This document shows, in pieces, positions 11,601-64,000 of a stretch of 64,000 nt of DNA. The notes under the pieces were generated by a model, which was not told the origin of the DNA, did no database searches, and saw nothing but the letters and a program-made list of their open reading frames with translations. The stretch covers positions 38,198,191-38,262,190 of the forward strand of contig NC_088302.1 of NCBI RefSeq assembly GCF_032854445.1, given 5' to 3'. Both the position numbers and the translations under genes were made by a program. Position 1 is the stretch's first letter; every line of letters begins with the position of its first letter. The DNA is from Liolophura sinensis (Eukaryota; Mollusca; Polyplacophora; Chitonida; Chitonidae).

Positions 11601-11794
11601 ATCGATCGTGTAATTAAATTATTTTGAGTAATGATTGAAACATTCGTCATTCTGAAGTAAAAAAGAATGTATAGTTGCACGTATCACTACATCACAGCAA
11701 TATGGTTCGGGATGTGGGATCATTACAAAAAAGTAATTTTTTTGCCATTATACCCTTCTAGAAGACAACCCTCCTGTGGTCAGGAGTGCTGTTT

Positions 11795-14142
11795 GGTGTT
11801 TCAGTCAGCGTTGTAATGTTGACTGATGCTTCAGCCAACGTTGTAATGTTGCTTGATGGATAAGCCTGTGTTGTAGTGTTGGTGAATGTTTCAGCCTGTG
11901 TTGTTCCATAAATGAATGTTTCAGCTTGTGTCGTTGTGTGATTGAGTGTTTCAGCCTGTGTTGTTCTGTGATTGAATGTTTCTGCTTGTGTTGTTCTGTG
12001 ATTGAATTTTCAGCCTGTGTTATTCTGTAAGTGAATATTTTAGTCTGTGATTGAATGTTTCAGCCTATGTTGTCTGTGATTGGATGTTTTAGCCTTTGTT
12101 GTTCTGCAAGTGAATGTTTCACCTTGTGTTGTTCTGTAAGTAAATGTTTCAGCCTGTGCTTTAGTGTGATTGAATGGTTGAGCCAGTGTTGTTCTGTGAT
12201 TGAATGTCTCAGCCGGTCTTGTTGTGTGATTGAATTTTTCAGTCCGTATTGTTCTGTGATTGAATGTTTCAGTATGTGTTGTTCTGTGATTGACTGTTTC
12301 AGTACGTGTTGTTCTGTGATTGACTGTTTCAGCATGTGTTGTTCTGTGATTAAATGTTTCAGCATGTGTTGTTCTATGATTGAATGTTTCAGCATGTGTT
12401 GTTCTGTGATTGAATGTTTCAGTATGTGTTGTTCTGTGATTGACTCTTTCAGTATGCGTTGTTCTGTGATTGAATGTTTCAGTATGTGTTGTTCTGTGAT
12501 TGAATGTTTCAGTATGTGTTGTTCTGTGATTGACTGTTTCAGCATGTGTTGTTCTGTGATTGAGTGTTTCAGCCTGTGTTGTTCTCTGATTGACTGTTTC
12601 AGTATGTGTTGTTCTGTGATTGAATGTTTCAGCATGTGTTGTTCTGTCATTGAATGTTTAAGCATGTGTTGTTCTGTGATTGAATGTTTTAGCATGTGTT
12701 GTTCTGTGATTGAATGTTTCAGCATGTGTTGTTCTGTGATTGAATGTTTCAGTATGTGTTGTTCTGTGATTGAATGTTTCAGTATGTGTTGTTCTGTGAT
12801 TGACTGTTTCAGTATGTGTTGTTCTGTGATTGACTCTTTTAGCATGTGTTGTTCTGTGATTGAATGTTTCAGTATGTGTTGTTCTGTGATTGAATGATTC
12901 AGTATGTGTTGTTCTGTGATTGACTGTTTCAGTGTGTGTTGTTCTGTGATTGACTGTTTCAGTATGTGTTGTTCTGTGATTGAATGTTTCAGTATGTGTT
13001 GTTCTGTGATTGACTGTTTCAGCATGTGTTGTTCTGTGATTGACTGTTTCAGCATGTGTTATTCTGTGATTGACTCTTTCAGTACGTGTTGTTCTGTGAT
13101 TGAATGTTTCAGCCTGTGTTGTTCTGTGATTGACTGTTTCAGCATGTGTTGTTCTGTGATTGAATGTTTTAGCATGTGTTGTTCTGTGATTGAATGTTTT
13201 AGCATGTGTTGTTCTATGATTGAATGTTTCAGTATGTGTTGTTCTGTGATTGAATGTTTCAGTATGTGTTGTTCTGTGATTGACTCTTTCAGTATGCGTT
13301 GTTCTGTGATTGAATGTTTCGGCATGAGTTGTTCTGTGATTGAATGTTTCAGTATGTGTTGTTCTGTGATTGACTGTTTCAGCATGTGTTGTTCTGTGAT
13401 TGAGTGTTTCAGCCTGTGTTGTTCTCTGATTGACTGTTTCAGTATGTGTTGTTCTGTGATTGAATGTTTCGGCATGTGTTGTTCTGTGATTGACTGTTTC
13501 AGCATGTGTTGTTCTGTGATTGACTGTTTCAGCATGTGTTGTTCTGTGATTGAATGTTTCAGCATGTGTTGTTCTGTGATTGAATGTTTCAGTATGTGTT
13601 GTTCTGTGATTGAATGTTTCAGTATGTGTTGTTCTGTGATTGACTGTTTCAGTATGTGTTGTTCTGTGATTGACTCTTTTAGCATGTGTTGTTCTGTGAT
13701 TGAATGTTTCAGTATGTGTTGTTCTGTGATTGAGTGTTTCAGTATGTGTTGTTCTGTGATTGACTGTTTCAGTATGTGTTGTTCTGTGATTGAATGTTTC
13801 GGTATGAGTTGTTCTGTGATTGACTGTTTCAGTATGTGTTGTTCTGTGATTGACTGTTTCAGTATGTGTTGTTCTGTGATTGAATGTTTCAGTATGTGTT
13901 GTTCTGTGATTGACTGTTTCAGCATGTGTTGTTCTGTGATTGACTGTTTCAGCATGTGTTATTCTGTGATTGACTCTTTCAGTACGTGTTGTTCTGTGAT
14001 TGAATGTTTCAGCCTGTGTTGTTCTGTGATTGACTGTTTCAGCATGTGTTGTTCTGTGATTGAATGTTTTAGCATGTGTTGTTCTGTGATTGAATGTTTT
14101 AGCATGTGTTGTTCTGTCATTGAATGTTTCAGCATGTGTTGT
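11795..14142. repeat. 30-bp minisatellite, about 75 copies, with an 840/900-bp higher-order repeat
   Basis: The unit carries the core TGTTGTTCTGTGATTGA plus ATGTTTCAG and a variable CATG/TATG. Copies left of about 12040 are degenerate and of uneven length; the rest keep an exact 30-bp register. Variant units recur in blocks: 12361-12900 matches 13201-13740 at a distance of 840 bp, and 12961-13200 matches 13861-14100 at 900 bp, a two-unit insertion making the difference. Because 30 is a multiple of three and the unit lacks stops, long frames run on both strands (12055-12897 and 12904-14193 plus; 12658-14304, 12060-13055 and 13059-13955 minus). They encode decapeptide repeats such as MCCSVIECFS, HILKHSITEQ and RTTHTETFNH. 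These are by-products of the repeat. Confidence 0.95.
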
Positions 14143-14669
14143 AGTCCTCAGACGAGCAGAAATCCTGTGGGTGCAAAGTCTGAGCTTTGTTAGCCGTGAA
14201 TACAAGTGCAAACAGCGTCTGGTGATGTGTCGGGTTGCGTCAAGCCCTGTACAGTGGCCACACGTTCCGTCAACAGAGGCTCTAGCTTCTGACGTATATG
14301 ACACTTTGAATGGCGTAATACAGGATCAAGTTACACCGTTTAAAAATTCTTCAACAGATGCACTTTTAAATGCCACATGCTTCCATGTAGCTATTGTAAA
14401 CTACGCCTGTGGATTTAGAGTAACAAAAACTGCGTCTGCCTTTCTTCGAGTTTTTTTTATTATTTGGCTCATCGCACAATAAGTTACAGTAGGGCGTATA
14501 ACTGTGTTGTTTGCACACCTCTGGGATCTATAGTTATTCTTTTGTAGGTTTGTGCAGATTTGCATAAAAATTAATAGGGTTTACACCTGCTTGTGTAAGG
14601 CACTGTAAAGCGTTAGTTATAGTTATTCCACTTTAAGAACACGCCCCGGGATCACGACAGATCTTTACT
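14143..14669. other. Unique sequence flanking the minisatellite
   Basis: The frame 14090-14482 (+) starts in the last repeat units and continues into unique sequence; no domain is recognisable. Nothing else is seen. Confidence 0.5.
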
Positions 14670-23900: not shown

Positions 23901-25873
23901 GAAATCGTCATTATAATGGCAATAATTAACTATTGACTGCACAACTTTGGACTGAATTATTTCTGGCGGGATCTGTTCCCCATGGTGTTAAAGTAGTTTA
24001 AAGGCTACAGCCTTACGTAAGTGGGGTTATCAGATACTTCATGAGGTGTGGTATTTTCCACTGACCGTCAGTTTCCTCAGTCTGTAAACTCGGACGCTGA
24101 CATATAAAAAGTATCAAAATATCCTTTCGTCAAATATCAATTAAAGAAACTCAACCAAATAAACATATTACAGAGTTACGCTAGTCATTAATAAACATGG
24201 ATGTTACTTAGTAGAACATCAAAAGACTTGAAGGTTGCGTGATGTTAGTCCACCTGTGTGACCCTTGTGGCTAGCTTTGGGTCAGACAAAGATATGCTAA
24301 GCTTGTCTTATATTGGTGGCCATTTTGGCGAGATTTCTTGCACAATTTTGATCCTAGAAACTTTCAAGCCCAAACAGCTATATAACTATAGACTTCTATT
24401 CATTTATATGCCAACCATTTAAAAAAAATCTGTCTATCGAAAGTGTGAAATCAACTACAGCAGAAAAACAGCGAGTTAAGGTGAATTTGCATCCAGATTT
24501 GAACAATTATTTGCAGAATACAGTGGGATTCAAACTGGAATTTTCAGAAAAAAACATATCCAGATTCAGAAACTATCAAACCATTGTAAGAAAAATGTAT
24601 GACCAAATTCAATGAAATATGGTCTTACAACCGCGCTGCTTTGTTGAATTTCGACAAAAATAATAATATGCAAAACTGAGATATGACTGCAAATACAAGA
24701 GGCGGAGTGCGAGTTCATGACTATATCATTGTTAGTTCCTGGGTGCGTTCGTTATATCTGTTCAAGTAAACACGCCCAAGGTATTATATGCACACAATCA
24801 AGAAAAAACTTCCATGACTTAAAGGGCTTTTTAATTATTATTGTACATCCCGGGGGAAAGCCGCACACAGGGTGTAAGTTTATGTATGTATGCCTTAATA
24901 CATTGGGAATTTTTGCTGTTGTCATTTTGCTATCTGAAGTTTTTAACCTCATTTCCGGCTTGCGTCAGTGTTCCTTGAGAACGTTTTAGATTCTAAACAG
25001 GTAATAATTTTAACATACATACGTGTATTTAAATCATCAGCGATCAGATTATCACAAGAATAGGTGAGGGGAAGATTAGGTAAGTATTCGGTTAGAGTGT
25101 CTTGTCAATATGAATCACTAAGATGCCTTATATTCTTCCTCGTAAACAGCTGACGTGTATTCAAATTTTATGACTCAACAAAATATTTGGTGTCATATTG
25201 TTGAAGCTAGCAATGAATAGGGCTATGGGTGAAATGTCAGTATGTAAGATGATAGCGCCGGTATCTGTTCGACAAAGAACATGGGCGCAACTCGACAACC
25301 CTAGTCACTGTGAAGCATCCACTTAGGTGTAAAGAATACCAGTAAACATACATTAATATGATTTATGCTATTGACGTGTCGCAAAGGCATCCTGGCACAA
25401 CAGCGTTCATACAATAACAGACAAGATAGCTGAGGCGGAAACCATGCGTGGAGCCGGAGCGGGTCTATCATTCGGTATGTCACCGCCAGAGTGCGCTGTG
25501 CCCAGGTATGTCGGCTACCTGCCAGAAACCGTTCTACTCCCAAATCGCCTTCATTAATTGCTGCCAGTTTAATTAGCCGAAATTCAATCCTCATAAAAAG
25601 GCCTTCCAGATTGCTTGCGATGTCAATTTGAGAAATGATTAAGACCATGAAATCTATACAAAACAACCCACGGTGCGATAAATTAAAGCCATAGTGGGCA
25701 GTTGATAAACACCAAGGTGTTTAATGATTACATTTCTGACAGGTTAGCTTTATCATAGGGTATCAGGTAAAAAAAAATAAACAAACCCAAGTATAGTAAC
25801 AATATTCAAACAAATATGAACAGGTAATCCCCTTTAGAATTGTTATTTCAGTTTCCAAAGATTCGGGTCATAA
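23901..25873. other. No gene recognised
   Basis: AT-rich sequence. The 121-codon minus frame 25301-25666 lacks any family motif that I know, as do 24717-24989 and its antisense. Confidence 0.5.
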
Positions 25874-26278
25874 GTCATCTTCTCATGACCCATCTACTCA
25901 TGACCCACCTACTCATGACCCATCTACTCATGACCCATCTACCCATGATCCACCTACTCATGGCCCATCTACTCATGACCCATCTACTCATGACCCATCT
26001 ACTCATGACCCACCTACTCATGACCCACCTACTCATGACCCATCTACTCATGACCCATCTACCCATGATCCACCTACTCATGACCCATCTACTCATGACC
26101 CATCTACTCATGACCCATCTACTCATGACCCATCTACTCATGACCCATTTACCCATGATCCACCTACTCATGACCCATCTACTCATGACCCATCTACCCA
26201 TGATCCACCTACTCATGGCCCATCTACTCATGACCCATCTATTCATGATCCATCTACTCATGACCCATCTACTCATCT
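25874..26278. repeat. 15-bp minisatellite, about 27 copies
   Basis: The unit CATCTACTCATGACC is repeated almost perfectly, with variants CACCTACTCATGACC and CATCTACCCATGATC. The variant unit recurs at about 25941, 26061, 26151 and 26196. The register is divisible by three, so both strands are open: plus 25840-26286 gives HLLMT repeats, minus 25875-26306 gives a WVMSR pentapeptide repeat. Neither is likely to be a protein. Confidence 0.95.
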
Positions 26279-26575
26279 GCTCATGACCTACCCGCCCATG
26301 AACCAACTGTTCATGATCCGCAAGAAGCCAATTTAACCCAACTTATTATCCACCTACTCATGGCCCACCTGCTCGTGACCCAACGGTTCATGACCCACAT
26401 ACTCATAACCCATCTACTCATGACCATCTATTCTACTTATGATCTAGCTGCTCATGGTCCACGTGCTCATGACATATCTACTCCCGACGAACGTGCTCAT
26501 AATCCACCTACTCATGACCCGCGTATTCATGGCGTATCTACTCATGAGCATTCTACTCATGACCCTTACTCATGC
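26279..26575. repeat. Degenerate flank of the 15-bp minisatellite
   Basis: ACTCATGACC-like words continue at irregular spacing (CTGCTCGTGACCCAACGGTT, CATACTCATAACCCATCTAC) to about 26575, an older edge of the array. The frames 26360-26635 and 26454-26642 lie in it. Confidence 0.75.
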
Positions 26576-41433: not shown

Positions 41434-42324
41434 CGTTCCCTTGAGTGTTATTCAAGGGTGACTCTATTTGTAAAGATACCTGGTTGTATGGCAGACGGAA
41501 GTGGCTGATTCCAGAATATCCCGTTCATACCAAAGCCTTGTGCGTGTTTTATATGGTGTTGGGAGTTAGCACATGTATTAGAATTTTAGTCAGTGCCCTG
41601 TGTACTTGTGAGGACATGTCATCCCTCTGCCCAAGAGCGACCAACCGTAACTCCGCTTGAATTCATCGCTTAATTCTCGGTTACATTTTCTGGTCATGTT
41701 TTGTCGCGAGATCTACTCACATGCTGCATATCCTTGCATAGACATAACGTATCTATACCTGCGTGTGTGTCGCCGTTATCAGCGCTGAGTATGATTTCTG
41801 TGGGTCACTTTCGGTTGCGGTTTCCGTTGGAGGTGCGGCGTTGATATATTACTGACCTTTGCTGGGTAGTTCCGTCAGTTTAGTGTTAACATATAGTACC
41901 TGCAATACTAGGATCATGTCTATAACTCCATTACCTGAGCATGGTACCCGAAAAAAGGTGTGACTGAATATTTACCCTTGGCTGACCCATTTCTTTGGGC
42001 AAACAACACATGCAATATTAAATCAGAGCATTTGCATGAACCAATAACTTATCATCCAGCGACAACTTCATCTACCTTATCTGTTTGCAAAGCGCTTCCC
42101 TCTGTATGTCATTTCAAGATAAGTTGCTTTTTCTCTCAGGTTTAAAAAGGTTTGTTTAAAATTGTCATGGTTTCACTATCGCCACCAGGACCTACCCAGT
42201 TTCCTTCTGGCTTTAGAAACAGGTATTGTCTGGTTTCCTTAGAAGCTGTCCAGTATATCACCTGTATCTTTCATTATTTACTCATTCTGCAACAACGTGT
42301 TTTAAGCCAGGATACTTCTTTGTT
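41434..42324. other. No gene recognised
   Basis: Frames 41445-41660 and 41960-42145 show no domain. Nothing else is supported. Confidence 0.5.
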
Positions 42325-42450
42325 TAATATTTATTTATTAATTTATTTGATTGGTGATACGGTGTTTTACACCGCACTCAAATATATGTCACTTATACGA
42401 TGGCGGCCAGCATTATGGTGCGAGGAAACCGGGTTAGAACCCAGGGGAGT
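42325..42450 (-). mobile_element. SINE family B, 3' half
   Basis: TTTATTTGATTGGTGATACG, ACACCGCACTCAAATATATG, then ACTTATACGATGGCGGCCAG and CATTATGGTGCGAGGAAACC. It matches 4021-4110 with a short insertion near the tail. The frame 42152-42520 crosses it. Confidence 0.8.
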
Positions 42451-42504
42451 AAACCAAAATAGCCTGATTTGTTATCACAGTAAAAATTACCACAGAGGTT
42501 TATT

Positions 42505-42910: not shown

Positions 42911-44274
42911 GATTCATGTGTTTTAATCAAAACAAAATAGGTCTGTGCGTAGTTTTAAGGGCTACAGTGACAGCATCACATTCTTGTAACTCAAACGCCC
43001 CCATGAGAGCAGGTGTGGAAACTTGCCATAGTGCAACAGTCGCGCACTCAACCTTCCATATTCACACGAATTACAGCTAACTAGTATTCGTATCTCACGC
43101 AACTTAAGTAACTTGGGGAACATATATACTTCTTTTCTCCTATTACTTTTTTTCTTGGGTTCTGCTAGATTTTATGTCAACTATTATTATATTGTCTGTG
43201 TAAGATAGAAGTGGAGCGGATAAAGTGTCACAAGGGCTGCTGGGTTAGTTTTACTTATATTACACATAGGCAAACATATTGGGACAGGACCGCTGTTGGC
43301 TATGATAGATGTACATGTAATGTGAAAGTTGACATTCACCAAGTCTTCACGCTTCATGGCTCCTCGGATGACTCATCCTTGGTCGCACTTACCCAGTGTT
43401 AAAAACACGCTGTCCACAAAAGGGACGACTATCTATTAAGTACAAGTGACAATGGGGGCAAGTTTGTTATACTGGTCCATCGGGCAGAAGGTGTCCGTAA
43501 CGAACGCTATGTTTGCTATCCACACCACACCAAACCATATTGATATAGTGTTTTTTTTTGTTCCACATGCCCGTTGCATATCTTTGCATCTTATTACGGA
43601 GTTTTGCATACATGCATTACGATGGAAACCCAGCAACCGAATAACTTGTGACCAGTAGGCCTACTTACTGCGGTACCCTCATTGCCAACTCAGTTCTGCG
43701 AAATAAACAGGACCTTAGGTAAACTGGGTATTTTGTAAACTTAAAAATTTAACATGAGACACCGTCGCCTTATCATATCATGTGTAGGCTTTTGTGTAGG
43801 TTTTTGTGTAGGTTTATAGGTATAGCTATAGACATATATGCATACAAACTGTGTACGAAAAATTCACTTCGTAAAAACAAAGAGTAAGAAACACAACTGT
43901 TATTGCGATTACGAGCGGGCTTCCAGAAGCGTCTAGAACACGGACTGTGAGTAACTGACCACCATCCCAATAACACACAAGCCCTGATTGTGTGGGTGGT
44001 GCGAGAAAGCAGAGCAAACAGTGCAATGCTCGTGGTCAGGCACTGTAAAAGCATCTGTAGGAATTACCGACCCATTCAGGTCACAAACTGGACGGTTTCC
44101 TCTTTGCGAACTACATGCATACAAGAAAAAAAGGGGATGTAGTACATCAAAGACAATGCTAGCGATGTAGTTGTGATTCTATGGATAACCGATTAGCTCC
44201 ACTTATATTCAATCATTTTAGAGACTGTGGCTGGATTGACTGGTTGCTCATATCAGAGATTTACTGACTGTAGG
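42911..44274. other. No gene recognised
   Basis: Overlapping frames on both strands at 43436-43658 and 43773-44170 show no domain. TGTGTAGG is repeated at 43782-43813. Confidence 0.5.
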
Positions 44275-44490
44275 ATTTAGCCAGGATGCCGAAATCCGCG
44301 ACGTGTAATTAGACCGGAAGTCCACCAAGGGTTGACGATTTCCACCCGTGGGAGGGTGCAGACCGTCGTGAACGGCCATAGCCGAAGCATGTGCGACACG
44401 TGCCACGAAGAAACCCTGGGGTGCTAAGTGACCAGGTCACGGAATTGTCGCCACCCTCCCGTAACCTTAACGCCAGGGGTTTCCAGCTAA
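44275..44490. other. C+G-rich island of unknown nature
   Basis: A distinctly C+G-rich block within AT-rich surroundings, with many CpG. GGGAGGGTG (about 44350) and CACCCTCCC (about 44452) are inverted repeats about 100 bp apart. The minus frame 44309-44560 covers it without a recognised domain. It might be a structured element, an old repeat or an unrecognised exon. Confidence 0.4.
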
Positions 44491-45409
44491 TGTGCAGGGA
44501 AGCCTGCATCACTTGTGAAGAACATGAGCATTTCAATAGATAAACTCTAATAACAAACATAAGCGGTTTGGGTTACCATGAATACTCCCGTAAACGGCTC
44601 TCTGCTGACATAAAATGTCCAGCAATTTGCATAGTTACATAGACAAGTTGTTGTAAAAGTACAACATCGTCTCATGACTTTTTTTTTCACAAGCAATGTG
44701 ATGCAAAGGTGAAAATGCCAGTTAAATACACAGAAACATGATGCATCGGTATATGTGCCTTATTTATTATAGATCTATTACATTTATCTTTGTAAAGTAT
44801 TTTCTCTGTCCTGAAATACAGACATGTATCATGTACATATACAGAAGTGTTTAGCAATTTTATGCTGTCTTGGAAGATGAACTGAATTATTGTTTTTTAT
44901 TGTGTGGGGTGGCATGGCAAAGACATTTTTGTACAATACACTGTAACATCTAAGTAACAGCTAGGGTCTACTGCCCTATATACGATTATAGAACCAGAAA
45001 ATGACGGAACAAAAATGCAGGTGTGTTCGTACTGAACTATTGTGAAGGAGACTTTAAAACTGTTAAACTTTTCTGGCGTCAGCATAAATGTTCAAAAGCA
45101 TGTTCACACATGAGACATGTCTTAGTTTAGGGCGATGGACAAAAAAAAAGCTATACGTAAAAAGCAGTTAACATACTTCTCGTTCAAATTCCTACCAGCA
45201 TGCCATCCCAATAACCGTCAGGTTTCTCGATGCCTTCTAAAAATCTCCTTCGAGACAGGCATCGGTTTATTTTCCTCTACAGTTGAATATTACGACCGAA
45301 ATAAAATTTTGATATAAGTGTAAAACTTTTATTGTCTTTGATACGTGATAAAAGAGAAGAAACAATGACAGATGGAACAATAATTATAGAGCCTTGAGAA
45401 TTTCAAATG
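44491..45409. other. No gene recognised
   Basis: AT-rich sequence leading to the INF2 promoter-like region. No exon for the missing first half of the DID was recognised here. Confidence 0.5.
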
Positions 45410-45583
45410 CGTTAAGTTATTGTGCGCATTCACTGATTGGCCACAGCGTGACAGGCAAAGCTCCGCCTCCTGTGTCAACCAGGCAGAACGCTCACCTGAG
45501 CTCTCTTACCTGTGTTAGTTTTAACTTGAATTTCAGTCGCAGCGCAGAGCGGAGGTCTGCGGGAACGCTTTACCTGGTGTAAT

Positions 45584-45646
45584 ATGGCAGTGCTGTGTGC
45601 TTTTTCTCCTGAGGAGGATTTCCAAAAGTTTCCATTTGGAGTTTAA
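45584..45646 (+). CDS. Upstream ORF 1 in the INF2 leader (20 codons)
   Basis: The context AATATGG opens a 20-codon frame ending at TAA 45644-45646, in the same frame as the main ATG. The peptide starts MAVLCAF and ends FPFGV; no function is assigned. If the leader is transcribed as proposed, this uORF would be met first by scanning ribosomes and would reduce or condition INF2 translation. If exon a is internal, it is meaningless intron sequence. Confidence 0.3.
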   Translation: MAVLCAFSPEEDFQKFPFGV

Positions 45647-45649
45647 CCG

Positions 45650-45673
45650 ATGTGTTTCTGTACGGTTTTGTGA
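45650..45673 (+). CDS. Upstream ORF 2 in the INF2 leader (7 codons)
   Basis: ATG at 45650 opens a seven-codon frame (MCFCTVL) stopping at TGA 45671-45673, 18 nt before the main ATG and in the same frame. It starts three bases after uORF 1 ends. A short uORF stopping this close to the main start is a typical arrangement for reinitiation control, but it depends on the leader being transcribed. Confidence 0.28.
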   Translation: MCFCTVL

Positions 45674-45691
45674 GTGAAAAGTGTGCCCGCC

Positions 45692-45758
45692 ATGACTACC
45701 CACACAGGGTTGGATTACATTATTGAGAATAAGGAGTTTACGGACAAGTTTGCCACAG
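45692..45758 (+). CDS. INF2: INF2-like exon a: first coding exon seen (DID segment GLDYIIENKEF)
   Basis: This exon encodes 22 residues plus one base. It starts at ATG in the context CCCGCCATGA, which has a purine at -3, and ends ACAG before the donor GTAGGG. Residues 6-16, GLDYIIENKEF, correspond to human INF2 GIEYILSNQGY in the middle of the DID. The last base joins exon b to make Ala, as in the human SQ-A-LD stretch. The frame is closed just upstream by TGA at 45671-45673, so coding cannot extend left without splicing. Two readings fit. It may be a first exon from an internal promoter, adding MTTHT. Or it may be an internal exon entering at the CACACAG acceptor ending at 45707, whose pyrimidine tract is weak. 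I slightly favour the first because of the promoter-like sequence upstream. Confidence 0.75.
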
Positions 45759-48700
45759 GTAGGGGGACTGATCTAACCGCTATAAGCAGTGTCGCATGAA
45801 CGCCGTATATACCCGTGCTCTGTTCTGGCCCCCATCGGCACGGCGGAACACTGTTTGCTCTTTTCAATACTCGACCACTTTAAAAAGTTCGGAGAAGTTT
45901 GAAACTTTATACTGTATGGTTTACTATCCTTACATGTCCTTCTCCGTGCATGTAAACATACTTAATACGTTTTAAACACCTTGGAAGCCGTATACATTTA
46001 ATATATATTGACAATAGCAGACATATATTAATACAATGACTATATACTTGCAACAGGGAACATTTCTATCTGATCAGATCATTATATACAGACAATTGTT
46101 GTCGAAAAACTTTTCTACAAAAGTATTTCACTAACAATTCATCATCTCTCAACAGTCGGTTCGAAGGAAGATTCTTTATTTAAATGGTAATCTTTGAATA
46201 TCATAGTGGTCATATCCATATGTTGGATTTGTTTAGCCATTCTTTACATTGTCCAATCCCCCTTTTCCGGTTATAGGGACAGAGAAAGGTATCCGGGTAC
46301 AGTTTAAGACACTCTTAAAACCATCCCACACGAAATGAACCACAGACGTGGAGTTCTTATTAAGTAATTAATGTAAAATGACCTTGATGTCGATCGACCT
46401 GTTTGAACACCTGTCGGTGTGGACTCGACCAGGCTCAATTTGAGCTGTAGTTTGGCGTTTTTATTGCGCATGTCTTATAATTCTTCGGCTCCCAAAATCT
46501 ACCGACTTACATAAGGCTCGATCACTGACATCGTGTCCAGTTTAAACCAGATCAGGTAGGGAAGATGGGAAATTCTGATAACTTTTAACAACACGCTAAC
46601 GCTTTCAGGAGATATTAATAGCTAAATATACACAGGTTTGTTAAACCAAGAGAAATAATATTATCCCTTTAGGCATATTGAAAAACTGACTGTTTACTTT
46701 TGCCAATGAACTGAGAGTTCAAGTATGGGGCACACACAGGTCCGGTTAAAGTACCACGAGACGCGTGGAGAAATTGACCGCTACTCGCCAGCGGGTTAGA
46801 AGGCAGGGTAAGCCTTTTTTTTTTACCTTATTACCGTCTTAGCCAATTTATAAGCTGTGTTGATCAGACTTTGGCATACTCCCGGGTCCCACATAAACCG
46901 CCAGGTGATCGCATTAGCCTAGATTTGTTCAAGTGAAGTTACATAAAAAACAGAATACTAACTTATAACATCTGTGGCCTAGCAAGGTGTTATATCCACC
47001 CGTGTCCGCGAGATGCAGTCCTACATAAGCAGCAAGCCTCCAGGTGGACCGATCACAATCCCCCTGTCACTCAATCTCCTTCCTATAGATTCATCTTTAT
47101 TTTATCATTAAGCCAACGTCTTTCGTTCGTTTCTTTTGAAAGTTTATGCTTCTTAAAAAATTCGCTCCTGACGAAGTCGCACATTTTGCCTCATTGTGTT
47201 GATTTTAGAAAGTTTTTTTGAGGTTTGTCTAGAATGTATGATGATACTGTGAAAAGTATAAGTTTCAGCAATACAAGTAATATTGTATAGTATTTGTTTG
47301 CTTCTGAAAATGCTAATTTTGGGGCGAAATTTTGGGTCATTTATAATATATGTATTTATACATCAGAGGCCTGGAGATGGGGTCGGTTCATCAGCAGGGT
47401 GCCCGAACATGGCCCATGTTGACATTCTGGCCCACAGCCTTGTACGTGTGTACCTTGACGTAAAGGAATTCTGCTGCTATAGACAATCAGGGAACTCGGC
47501 TCGCTGTACACTAGATTGTCGTACAAACAACTTGCAGTTATTTTTTATTAAATATTACGTACGGTATTTTTTTACACCTATAATTGTGCAGGGGGACCTA
47601 TTTTCTAGAAAACTACGCACATACTGTGATCAAACTACATTGACTACAACCTGTCACATTAATGAAGGTATATCTACATGCATAGACTCGTAGCCGGTTA
47701 ATAGTTATAGGTTGTATTTTATACGCAGTGTCAGTGGGTAGAGGCTTATTAACCTACGGTGACCTTGTACTTACTGTCCTGCAAAACACATCGTAACTGT
47801 TACACCATTAGCGTTCAGACGTCAGACGTGTCAAACTATAATCACCTTGATGGATACATGTTCATAGTTCCACACGCTTTTGACGGCAGATATACAATTA
47901 CACACTTTGAACGAAACAACGTTTACTTATTCAACAAGTTTTGGACGGCAGATGTGTCAAGTTATACATCTTGAAAAGAGACAACGTTTACCACTTCACA
48001 GGTTTTCGACGAAAGATGTGTCGAATTATGTACTTTGAAAGAGACAGCGTTTACCATCTCAACAAGTTTTCGACCATAAGTGTGTCAAGTTATACACTTT
48101 AAAAGAAACAACGTTTACCAATTGAACAAGTTTTAGACGTTAAATGTGTGAAGTTATACACCTTTGAAGGAAATAATGTTTACCAGTCCTACACGTTTTT
48201 GACGACAGATTTGTAAAATTATAAATTAATTTGAAAAATATGAGTTAACCAGTTCTATACATTTTGATACCGCTGCACCATTATTTTTCAAATGCCTGTC
48301 AGCAAACGATTATTCGAAAGGTTGGCAATGGTGACTGACTTTTCTATATTAGTGTTTAGGCAAACATCATTATACAGCAATTAGGCCCATACAACAAGCT
48401 GACGGAAAATGGCATTGTCGTCGTCAGCGTGTTGTCCTCTGAGCAATGCGCTTTCAAAGTTCCTAAAAAAATCAGACCACCTATTTAGTAAAGGGGTTAG
48501 CACATCTGGCCTGTACTCTCTGGTATTACATAATCTCACAGAGAAAGCCTGTGGGGTAACACACTGTCCAAGTTAGTCCATTATCTTGTGTGGAGTATCC
48601 GTCCATTGTCTGGCCTGTCACAATGACCAGTTTTGATCATGCAGCAGGCTAGTTAGGACACACAAGTCACCTCCTAAATCGGACAATGGCCCTGCAATCT

Positions 48701-51887: not shown

Positions 51888-52003
51888 CTCTCGACAAAAG
51901 CAATGTCGCAAGCAAGAAACAAGTGTTTGAGCTATTGTCGGCCATGTGCGTTTACTCAAATCAGGGGTACGCACGCGCACTGGAGGCTTTGGAACACTAC
52001 AAG
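51888..52003 (+). CDS. INF2: INF2-like exon b (DID armadillo helices, KKQVFELL motif)
   Basis: The exon is 116 bp: two bases completing the split Ala codon, then 38 codons, ending in phase 0. The acceptor is TTTTCTACAG and the donor AAG/GTAAGTT, close to consensus. The protein contains KKQVFELL followed by SAMCVYSNQGYA and ends ALEHYK. Vertebrate INF2 has KKQVFELLAALCIYSPEGH and ends ALDHYK at the same places, and the exon has the same length and boundaries as I recall for human exon 3. This is the most conserved stretch of the window. It codes for DID armadillo helices near the DAD-binding groove. The frame stays open into the intron, so the longer open stretch 51836-52060 is not the true coding extent. 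Confidence 0.93.
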
Positions 52004-58977: not shown

Positions 58978-59137
58978 ACGACGAAAAAATTACGGTACCG
59001 TTTCGGAGTGATTTTGGATGAGTTGAACAAAGAAGAAAGTATATCATACCGAGCAGCTCTGTTGGGCTTCATTAACTGTTTGATAATTTATTCCAAGGAC
59101 ATCGAGGACAGAGTTCGAATTCGTAACGAGTTCATCG
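58978..59137 (+). CDS. INF2: INF2-like exon c (end of DID, RNEFIG motif)
   Basis: The exon is 160 bp: 53 codons plus one base. The acceptor is TTCTGTTTCAG, with a good pyrimidine tract, and the donor is ATCG/GTAAGTG. The product starts TTKKLRYRFGVILDEL and ends RIRNEFI, with the Gly split into the next exon. Vertebrate INF2 reads QYRFSIVMNEL and RTQLRNEFIG at the same positions. The two arginines matching human R214 and R218, which I recall as hotspots for inherited kidney disease and neuropathy, are both present. The exon ends in the same phase as human exon 4. Alternative formin families have diverged RYEF- or QYEF-type motifs here. Confidence 0.93.
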
Positions 59138-62768: not shown

Positions 62769-64000
62769 GTAAGTTCAGCACCACTACGTAGTTTTTATGG
62801 TGTATTTCCCTATTTTTAGGAACTTGACGATATGCCCTACATTGATTTACTTTCCAATTAATGTGAGTATAATGAATTAACTAAGTAACGCGTCCACCTG
62901 TCAACAGCACTACTGGATTACTGGGCCAACAGGGCCCAGCTATTTGGGTTTTAAGCCATCGTGATCAAAAGCAGCCTAACATTTTCAAGTCCAAAGGTAG
63001 CAAACCTCTCCGATGGGATGCGTGTATATTTTGTTCACTGTACTCGTGACATGCAAATAATAGTCTTGACGAGATCTGTGTAAAAAAAGTGTAAAGAATA
63101 AGAGTGTTTATCCAGATGAGAAGTGACATGTGTAGTGACGCGACGAGGCGGGAGTATGTAAGATATCTACCTGCAATGATTGCACAAGCTTTGGATCACT
63201 GTCTACGAATGCATTCTACACAGCCGTCTACAGGTTTCCAAATTCGGGGCTCTGCGCACCGTGGACTCCAAAAAGCACAAGCGGAGAAAATGGATGGGAT
63301 TGTCAGTTAATAGCGAGACTCACGCAAGCTTAAAGGAGACAAAAAAACCCTTATCACAAGAGCTATTTCTTTGAGAGTTGCCAGAGCGCCAGCGTGCTAA
63401 GTTGTCATCTGGTTTAAGAAGGGGTAACATAACTTTAAATTTGCCAAATCGCCTGGGTAAGTTCAGCTGGGTCTGTTAATTCAACTCGACTGTCACAGCC
63501 ATTGCGTTTTCTCGTTGAACTTCGACCTCCGTTAATTGGGCAATGTCTGGTATGATTATCTGGGTACATGTCAGAGTTACTCTTGAATCAAATCTCTGCT
63601 ATAGACCCGTCGGCATGTTTCTCAACCTTGAACCTTAACAAACGCCCTTAGCAAATAGATTCGCAATAAACGCACTCTTCAGTGCCATTTTAGGTAACTC
63701 TAAAGCCTTCCAATTAACTGGACCCACGTCTCTTTCAGTGCAGATGGTGTCCGGTTTCCTCCATAAGCCTGTGGATGTGCATACATTATGGCTGCCGCGG
63801 ATGTCCTTACGCCATGTTCTATAACACTAACTTTGGCAAAACCCACTAAAACTTAATGTCTTGGATTTCCTCACATTCCTTATTGACCTTAAATATTTAC
63901 ACAAAATATCAGGGCACTAGATTTTATCGATGCAGTCTTTGAACTTTTTGTTTAACTTTGTTTGATGTCCACGCCACCTCCTGACATCTTGTCAAAGACT
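62769..64000 (+). other. INF2 intron 4, start (runs off the window)
   Basis: Sequence after the GTAAGTTC donor. Candidate acceptors at about 63113, 63690 and 63739 were tested in the required phase; each gives a stop within a few codons or no formin-like residues. GTGTCCGGTTTCCTCC near 63750 resembles the middle part of SINE family B and may be a small remnant. Confidence 0.7.

Follow-up and report, generated by a model that had tools for sequence, protein, structure and literature searches.

According to the available text of the sources cited here, the G domain is absent from some INF formins, and from others the DID and the DD are missing as well (PMC5628938), and DAD/WH2-like motifs generally accompany a DID (PMC5047451). 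In mDia1, the DAD binds ARMs 2 to 5 of the DID (PMC11589041). Human INF2 loses its activity when the WH2/DAD, or the hydrophobic part of it, is deleted, and three of its WH2 leucines have been named, at positions 976, 977, and 986 (PMC12871907); because the INF2 WH2/DAD is needed for activity itself, retention of a DAD helix need not indicate inhibition and does not call for a complete DID. Caenorhabditis elegans EXC-6 is a formin related to INF2 that has no complete N-terminal DID (PMC5148669), Drosophila Form3 is an INF-type formin in which the DID-DAD pair is incomplete (PMC12045603), and FHDC1 (INF1) is an INF-subtype formin in which FH1-FH2 is followed by a long tail (PMC10985548). No INF formin that combines a partial DID with a DAD was found in the available text of the literature examined. 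The matches listed included no formin DID removed by an alternative promoter; a review by Hegsted and co-workers may mention one.

The gene considered here has its first recognizable exons in a 64,000-nucleotide stretch of the 609-Mb genome of Liolophura sinensis (the window, G000:C8:38198191-38262190; positions to its left and right are given in the same frame). It resembles mammalian INF2 in its FH2 domain, in the C-terminal half of the DID (the C-half; 45 of 93 residues identical), in the alanine of LLSAMC, on which INF2 A149 falls, and in a DAD/WH2-like motif that aligns with the INF2 WH2/DAD. The glycine of GIEYIL corresponds to human INF2 residue 114, in a numbering for which the second chain of the alignment was taken to carry its own numbers and in which an alanine stood at 149, as expected. 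Unlike mammalian INF2, the window gene has no equivalent that could be found of residues 1 to 113, which hold the CaM-binding extension and the first part of the DID, so that its predicted product has the C-terminal part alone and no complete N-terminal DID. Compared with EXC-6, in which the DID and dimerization regions are wholly absent according to the available text, it keeps much of the DID and a DD-like exon; compared with Form3, which is described as having a DID and no DAD, it has a DAD-like motif together with its partial DID. DID-less INF formins are already known in the form of EXC-6, of which the partial DID described here appears to be a variant. As a lead only, the FH2 domain was identical to an approximate FHDC1 reference at 93 of 200 positions in the blocks compared; FHDC1 is not known to have a DID. 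Our preferred reading, which we consider on balance probable, is that positions 45692-45758 are the first coding exon of a 5'-truncated INF-like paralogue that has a partial DID and has kept the DAD helix.

Three coding exons were recognized on the forward strand of the window. Exon 1 (45692-45758) encodes MTTHT followed by GLDYIIENKEFTDKFAT and ends in phase 1 at CACAG|gtaggg; its translation from ATG 45692 to the donor after 45758 is MTTHTGLDYIIENKEFTDKFAT. Exon 2 (51888-52003) follows ttctacag and carries the equivalent of INF2 A149, and exon 3 (58978-59137) follows tgtttcag and encodes TTKKLRYRFGVILDELNKEESISYRAALLGFINCLIIYSKDIEDRVRIRNEFIG, within Drf_FH3. The frame is maintained across the phase-1 junction of exons 1 and 2 and the phase-0 junction of exons 2 and 3, and the two introns measure 6.1 and 7.0 kb. 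When the three exons were joined, Drf_FH3 was matched above its cut-off, and Drf_GBD was matched only in the last 44 of its 188 positions, at 20.4 bits and below the 30.1-bit cut-off; this restriction implies that the window protein enters the DID late. The 17-residue block of exon 1 is identical to the paralogue at 54.1 Mb in 5 of 17 positions and to INF2 in 4 of 17; however, the same block of that paralogue is also identical to INF2 in just 4 of 17. On the forward strand of 184 kb, 4,421 stop-free blocks of 17 codons are followed by a GT; scored against those of human INF2 and the 54.1-Mb paralogue, the block of exon 1 ranked first (35.0; runner-up, 13.0), and no other block among the top four also ends in G|GT. 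By these comparisons, exon 1 is a clear match.

Further exons, past the end of the window, were placed by comparing open frames with those of the paralogues. Downstream of the DID, a match to the post-DID exon of the 54.1-Mb gene (E, 2e-7) at about 84.19 to 84.33 kb is probably the dimerization region. The FH2 exons lie between about 89.9 and 96.4 kb, with FH2 matches at C8:38288099-38294573, and are preceded by an open frame at 89384-90184. Typed against solved structures only, with no tree, the FH2 domain was nearest to INF2 (E, 2.4e-50; 175 bits; best DIAPH1 match, 3.7e-23 and 85.7 bits), and on these matches it is classed as INF subtype. The long last exon, whose C-terminal frame is open for 1,358 codons, carries the DAD/WH2-like CIVDMLLADVRSGFANRKTG at about 97.1 kb. 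A search with this motif gave four matches, every one of them to INF2, and aligned it with the INF2 WH2/DAD (E, 0.0072); within LLADVRSGFANRKT, two of the three WH2 leucines (976, 977, and 986) are kept and the position of leucine 986 is an Asn, a difference from mammalian INF2, as is the end of this frame, SSVQAK, which has no CAAX box. No Pfam domain was found in the last frame. The corresponding DAD-like motif of the 54.1-Mb gene is CIIDKLLGDIRKGTKLRK, and among the four stretches searched, which covered the 49.98- and 50.05-Mb genes in part, the DAD-like pattern matched only these two genes.

Three sister genes with INF-like DIDs share the chromosome of the window gene. A search with the C-half at an E value below 1e-4 recovered these three genes and the window gene with its duplicated copy, and no others (10 of 12 matches), the two leftover matches having E values of 3.8 and 5.2. 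Exons encoding an INF2-like N-terminal half of the DID (the N-half) were recognized at 49.96, 50.04, 54.10, and 54.11 Mb, all on C8; the 54.10-Mb N-half, joined to its own C-half, matched INF2 with an E value of 5e-61, and the others were assigned by similarity to it, with no tree. Counted by the DID, with FH2 matches on other chromosomes left untyped, the predicted INF-like formin genes in this genome are at least four. In each of the four N-half exons, the ARM region and the counterpart of the GxxxL/GLDYII block lie in a single uninterrupted open frame; a phase-1 donor was read directly in three of them, and in the 49.96-Mb exon the translation suggests one a few codons later. The earlier note had remarked that in vertebrates the sequence before GIEYIL continues upstream in the same exon. 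Related sequence does so in all four of the other N-half exons of this genome, and the window exon retains just the last 17 codons of the N-half region. In the gene at 50.04 Mb, copies of the 3' end of exon 3, coding letters included, directly follow the exon (C8:50.046 Mb), several of them spaced by 83 nt.

The 54.1-Mb gene (C8:54.10-54.12 Mb) shares with the window gene the exon borders after the N-half and the DAD-like motif; the C-halves are identical at 51 of 93 positions, and in hand-chosen FH2 blocks it was the nearer of the two paralogues compared (108 of 206 identical). Unlike the window gene, which has none, it carries a pair of N-half exons that differ from each other (54102101-54102394 and 54112271-54112561), both followed by the one recognized exon 2, at 54114751; this arrangement suggests putative alternative first exons that exchange half of the DID.

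The absence of an N-half from the window gene was examined with a profile of the four paralogous exons, run at full sensitivity on every open frame of 25 aa or more between -90 kb and +94 kb. In these 184 kb, which extend 136 kb upstream and 48 kb downstream of exon 1, no N-half exon was found, and the top score was 7.3 bits. When each paralogue was held out in turn, it scored 76 to 88 bits whole, and the background maxima were 7.5 to 8.1 bits, the window exon itself being that maximum in two of the four profiles. With the exons split at one point, the second part alone scored 53 to 62 bits and the first part alone merely 7.7 to 16.7 bits; very small N-half exons could therefore escape detection, and an N-half that is strongly diverged, or divided among several small exons, might be missed. 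Single-query tblastn of the locus with N-half exons (p54b, p49, and p50 included) gave, among the matches listed, E values of at least 0.23, and PF06371 had no match at 38.2 Mb. Within the 184 kb, no N-half exon was found upstream of exon 1, between exons 1 and 2, or downstream, nor was an orphan N-half found on another contig: a genome-wide protein search (E ≤ 10), in which first-look candidates only were scored, returned the same four exons and no fifth. The sequence upstream is gap-free for 120 kb, with no run of five or more N between -75089 and 66054, and the contig gap lies at -75 kb. In this assembly, the window gene is a predicted formin gene without a recognizable N-half DID. The half-DID postulated in the earlier note is thus upheld at the level of the genome, by a search whose control would detect each of the four paralogous exons, intact or divided at the single point used; the N-terminal half, for which that note had proposed a search upstream of 45.7 kb or beyond the left edge, was not found within the 136 kb upstream.

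The region from 45.4 to 45.7 kb is probably a candidate promoter and 5' untranslated region at the 5' end of the gene. On the forward strand, it holds an inverted CCAAT box (ATTGG, 45436-45440), some 99 nt upstream of the presumed start site; a GC-box-like CCGCCTCC (45463-45470), with no perfect GGGCGG; and an initiator-like TCAGTC (45533-45538), in which A45535 would be +1. All three had been proposed before and are present as described. The downstream element claimed along with them is a near match only: GGAAC (45562-45566), located by eye at +28, agrees in four of five positions with RGWYV, the DPE consensus, at the spacing of that element, and the exact motif is absent there. Two upstream open reading frames on the same strand sit between the presumed start site and ATG 45692, one of 20 codons (45584-45646; ATG 45584, with A at -3 and G at +4) and one of 7 codons (45650-45673; ATG 45650). 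The stop of the latter, TGA 45671-45673, closes the GLDY frame of exon 1 18 nt before ATG 45692, which is in frame and in good context (GCCATGA), as had been stated previously.

A CCAAT/ATTGG with a GC-box-like element and TCAGTY occurs at two places in 192,000 bp, one per strand, against a mean of 1.0 in 30 first-order Markov sequences, so that its frequency over this length barely exceeds chance and is not clearly enriched. It is unusual before this exon, occurring within 300 bp in 4 of 5,000 simulated 300-bp pieces of local composition; however, the combination was defined after it had been seen, which makes this local rarity merely suggestive. No TATA[AT]A is present in 45380-45760. The G+C content is raised, with a maximum of 0.497 in the segment that starts at 45550 (2.6% of 3,814 segments are as high), and there is no CpG island, the observed/expected ratio being an unexceptional 0.65 to 0.87 in seven 300-bp segments.

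A promoter supplied by a transposon was considered and rejected: 45400-45900 is single copy in the genome, and no repeat was found abutting exon 1. Six weak partial matches elsewhere to 44200-45450 all fall within about 44.59 to 44.74 kb. At 42313-42457 there is a member of a short, high-copy interspersed repeat, with 78 to 87% identity elsewhere (40 of 2,672 first-look candidates scored). Nor was a neighboring gene recognized directly upstream: ten open reading frames of 91 to 131 aa between 28 and 45 kb, hand-picked from a longer list from which at least one frame of similar length, a repeat at 36.1 kb, was left out, had no Pfam match above the cut-off, the better of two sub-threshold matches being CrtO (E, 0.00044), whose 21 bits fall short of the required 27.3.

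Because no upstream N-half DID exon was recognized to which the candidate promoter could be internal, the term "internal" used in the earlier note is unsupported, and the region looks like the gene's own 5' end. An explanation that would restore an upstream part, and that we regard as rather unlikely, is that 45708-45758 is a 51-nt internal exon, in phase 1 at both ends, with an N terminus, be it the N-half DID or another, supplied by a far, diverged, or unassembled upstream exon; ATG 45692 and the promoter motifs would then be coincidence. The AG at 45706-45707 on the forward strand adjoins the first conserved codon, and the conserved glycine would be restored if an upstream exon ended in G; however, given a GGG codon for that glycine, one A alone suffices to create this AG by chance. 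As an acceptor, the AG is T-poor: its 19-nt tract has 2 T, compared with 8 to 16 in 17 acceptors of the family read by eye beside homologous exon starts in these formin genes, and its 12 pyrimidines lie inside their range of 11 to 17. Its position weight matrix score of -6.3 is equaled or exceeded by 52% of the 3,524 AGs in the window, and 16 of the 17 family acceptors scored 4.3 to 15.7 when left out of the model; the outlier, exon 2 of the 54.1-Mb gene, is a real acceptor that scored as low (-6.1). The gap at -75 kb leaves room for such an exon, yet none encoding the N-half was found within 136 kb upstream or orphaned elsewhere, and a first intron of more than 136 kb would be unusual beside introns of 6.1 and 7.0 kb.

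The internal-exon explanation also draws on the retained C-half and DAD, which suggest a working DID. That the C-half is conserved points either to a role or to a complete DID that escaped notice, and a kept partial solenoid and DAD helix would be easier to understand with a complete DID, which counts against truncation. An upstream exon that encodes no DID sequence may also exist.

It is improbable, in our estimation, that the promoter at 45.5 kb serves a short second form of a gene whose full-length form splices an unrecognized first exon straight to 51888. The two N-half exons before one recognized exon 2 in the 54.1-Mb gene make first-exon exchange at the exon 2 junction seem possible, but no second N-half exon was found in the 184 kb searched, including the 6.1 kb between exons 1 and 2.

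The assembly downstream of exon 1 contains a tandem copy of 14.17 kb: 51890-66054, which runs from exon 2 past the end of the window at 64000, and 66255-80389, after a 200-N gap, are 99.43% identical over 14,174 aligned positions. Both haplotypes were probably placed in tandem there, as a haplotypic duplication, and since it lies downstream of exon 1, the main argument is unaffected. It is highly improbable that the whole gene is a decaying or mis-assembled copy with a truncation of no function, as the gap, the near-identical duplication, and the frame shift in the second exon-2 copy might suggest, since the duplication begins 6 kb after exon 1, the upstream sequence has no gap for 120 kb, the matching FH2 exons have open frames, and the C-terminal frame remains open over 1,358 codons. 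Elsewhere in the window, an extensive repeat array with a strong strand skew occupies 11758-14325, and both of its strands carry long open frames; 25800-26342 is a second repeat block, of the THDPS type, likewise open on both strands.

Returning to the first exon of a 5'-truncated paralogue, it can be supposed that the ancestor had a long first exon encoding the entire N-terminal half of the DID, as in the three sister genes, and that this exon then lost all sequence before the GLDY block. Transcription would start at this promoter and ATG 45692 would be used despite the two upstream open reading frames, the protein thus beginning at the equivalent of human INF2 residue 114. Such a product would be without the calmodulin-binding extension, ARM1, and most of ARM2, and would keep ARM3 onwards, as far as these borders can be placed, together with the C-terminal DID, the post-DID exon with its probable dimerization region, the FH2 domain, and the DAD/WH2-like motif. 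The most likely consequence may be that DID-DAD autoinhibition is lost or weakened; the DAD would then act mainly as a WH2-type actin-binding motif. A partial ARM solenoid exposes core surface and may require a partner.

More tentatively, and with less than even confidence, we propose that the window gene encodes a functional formin with a DAD/WH2 and a C-terminal DID whose N-terminal DID is permanently gone, an intermediate between INF2 and DID-less formins in which the first coding exon is exchangeable. If so, the conserved phase-1 junction would delimit an exchangeable first-exon module, filled by a long N-half in the sister genes, by either of two in the 54.1-Mb gene, and by a 22-codon stub here, and the remaining partial DID would have a non-autoinhibitory role, for example, in support of the dimer, in cargo binding, or in trans pairing with a second formin. 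Human kidney and nerve disease has been linked to mutations in the INF2 DID, which deregulate the formin (PMC11589041, PMC12871907, in their available text). A natural gene with a trimmed DID, if this reading is true, would show which parts of the module are dispensable, and it would bear on the origin of DID-less INF formins and on whether autoinhibition in the family depends on the choice of first exon.
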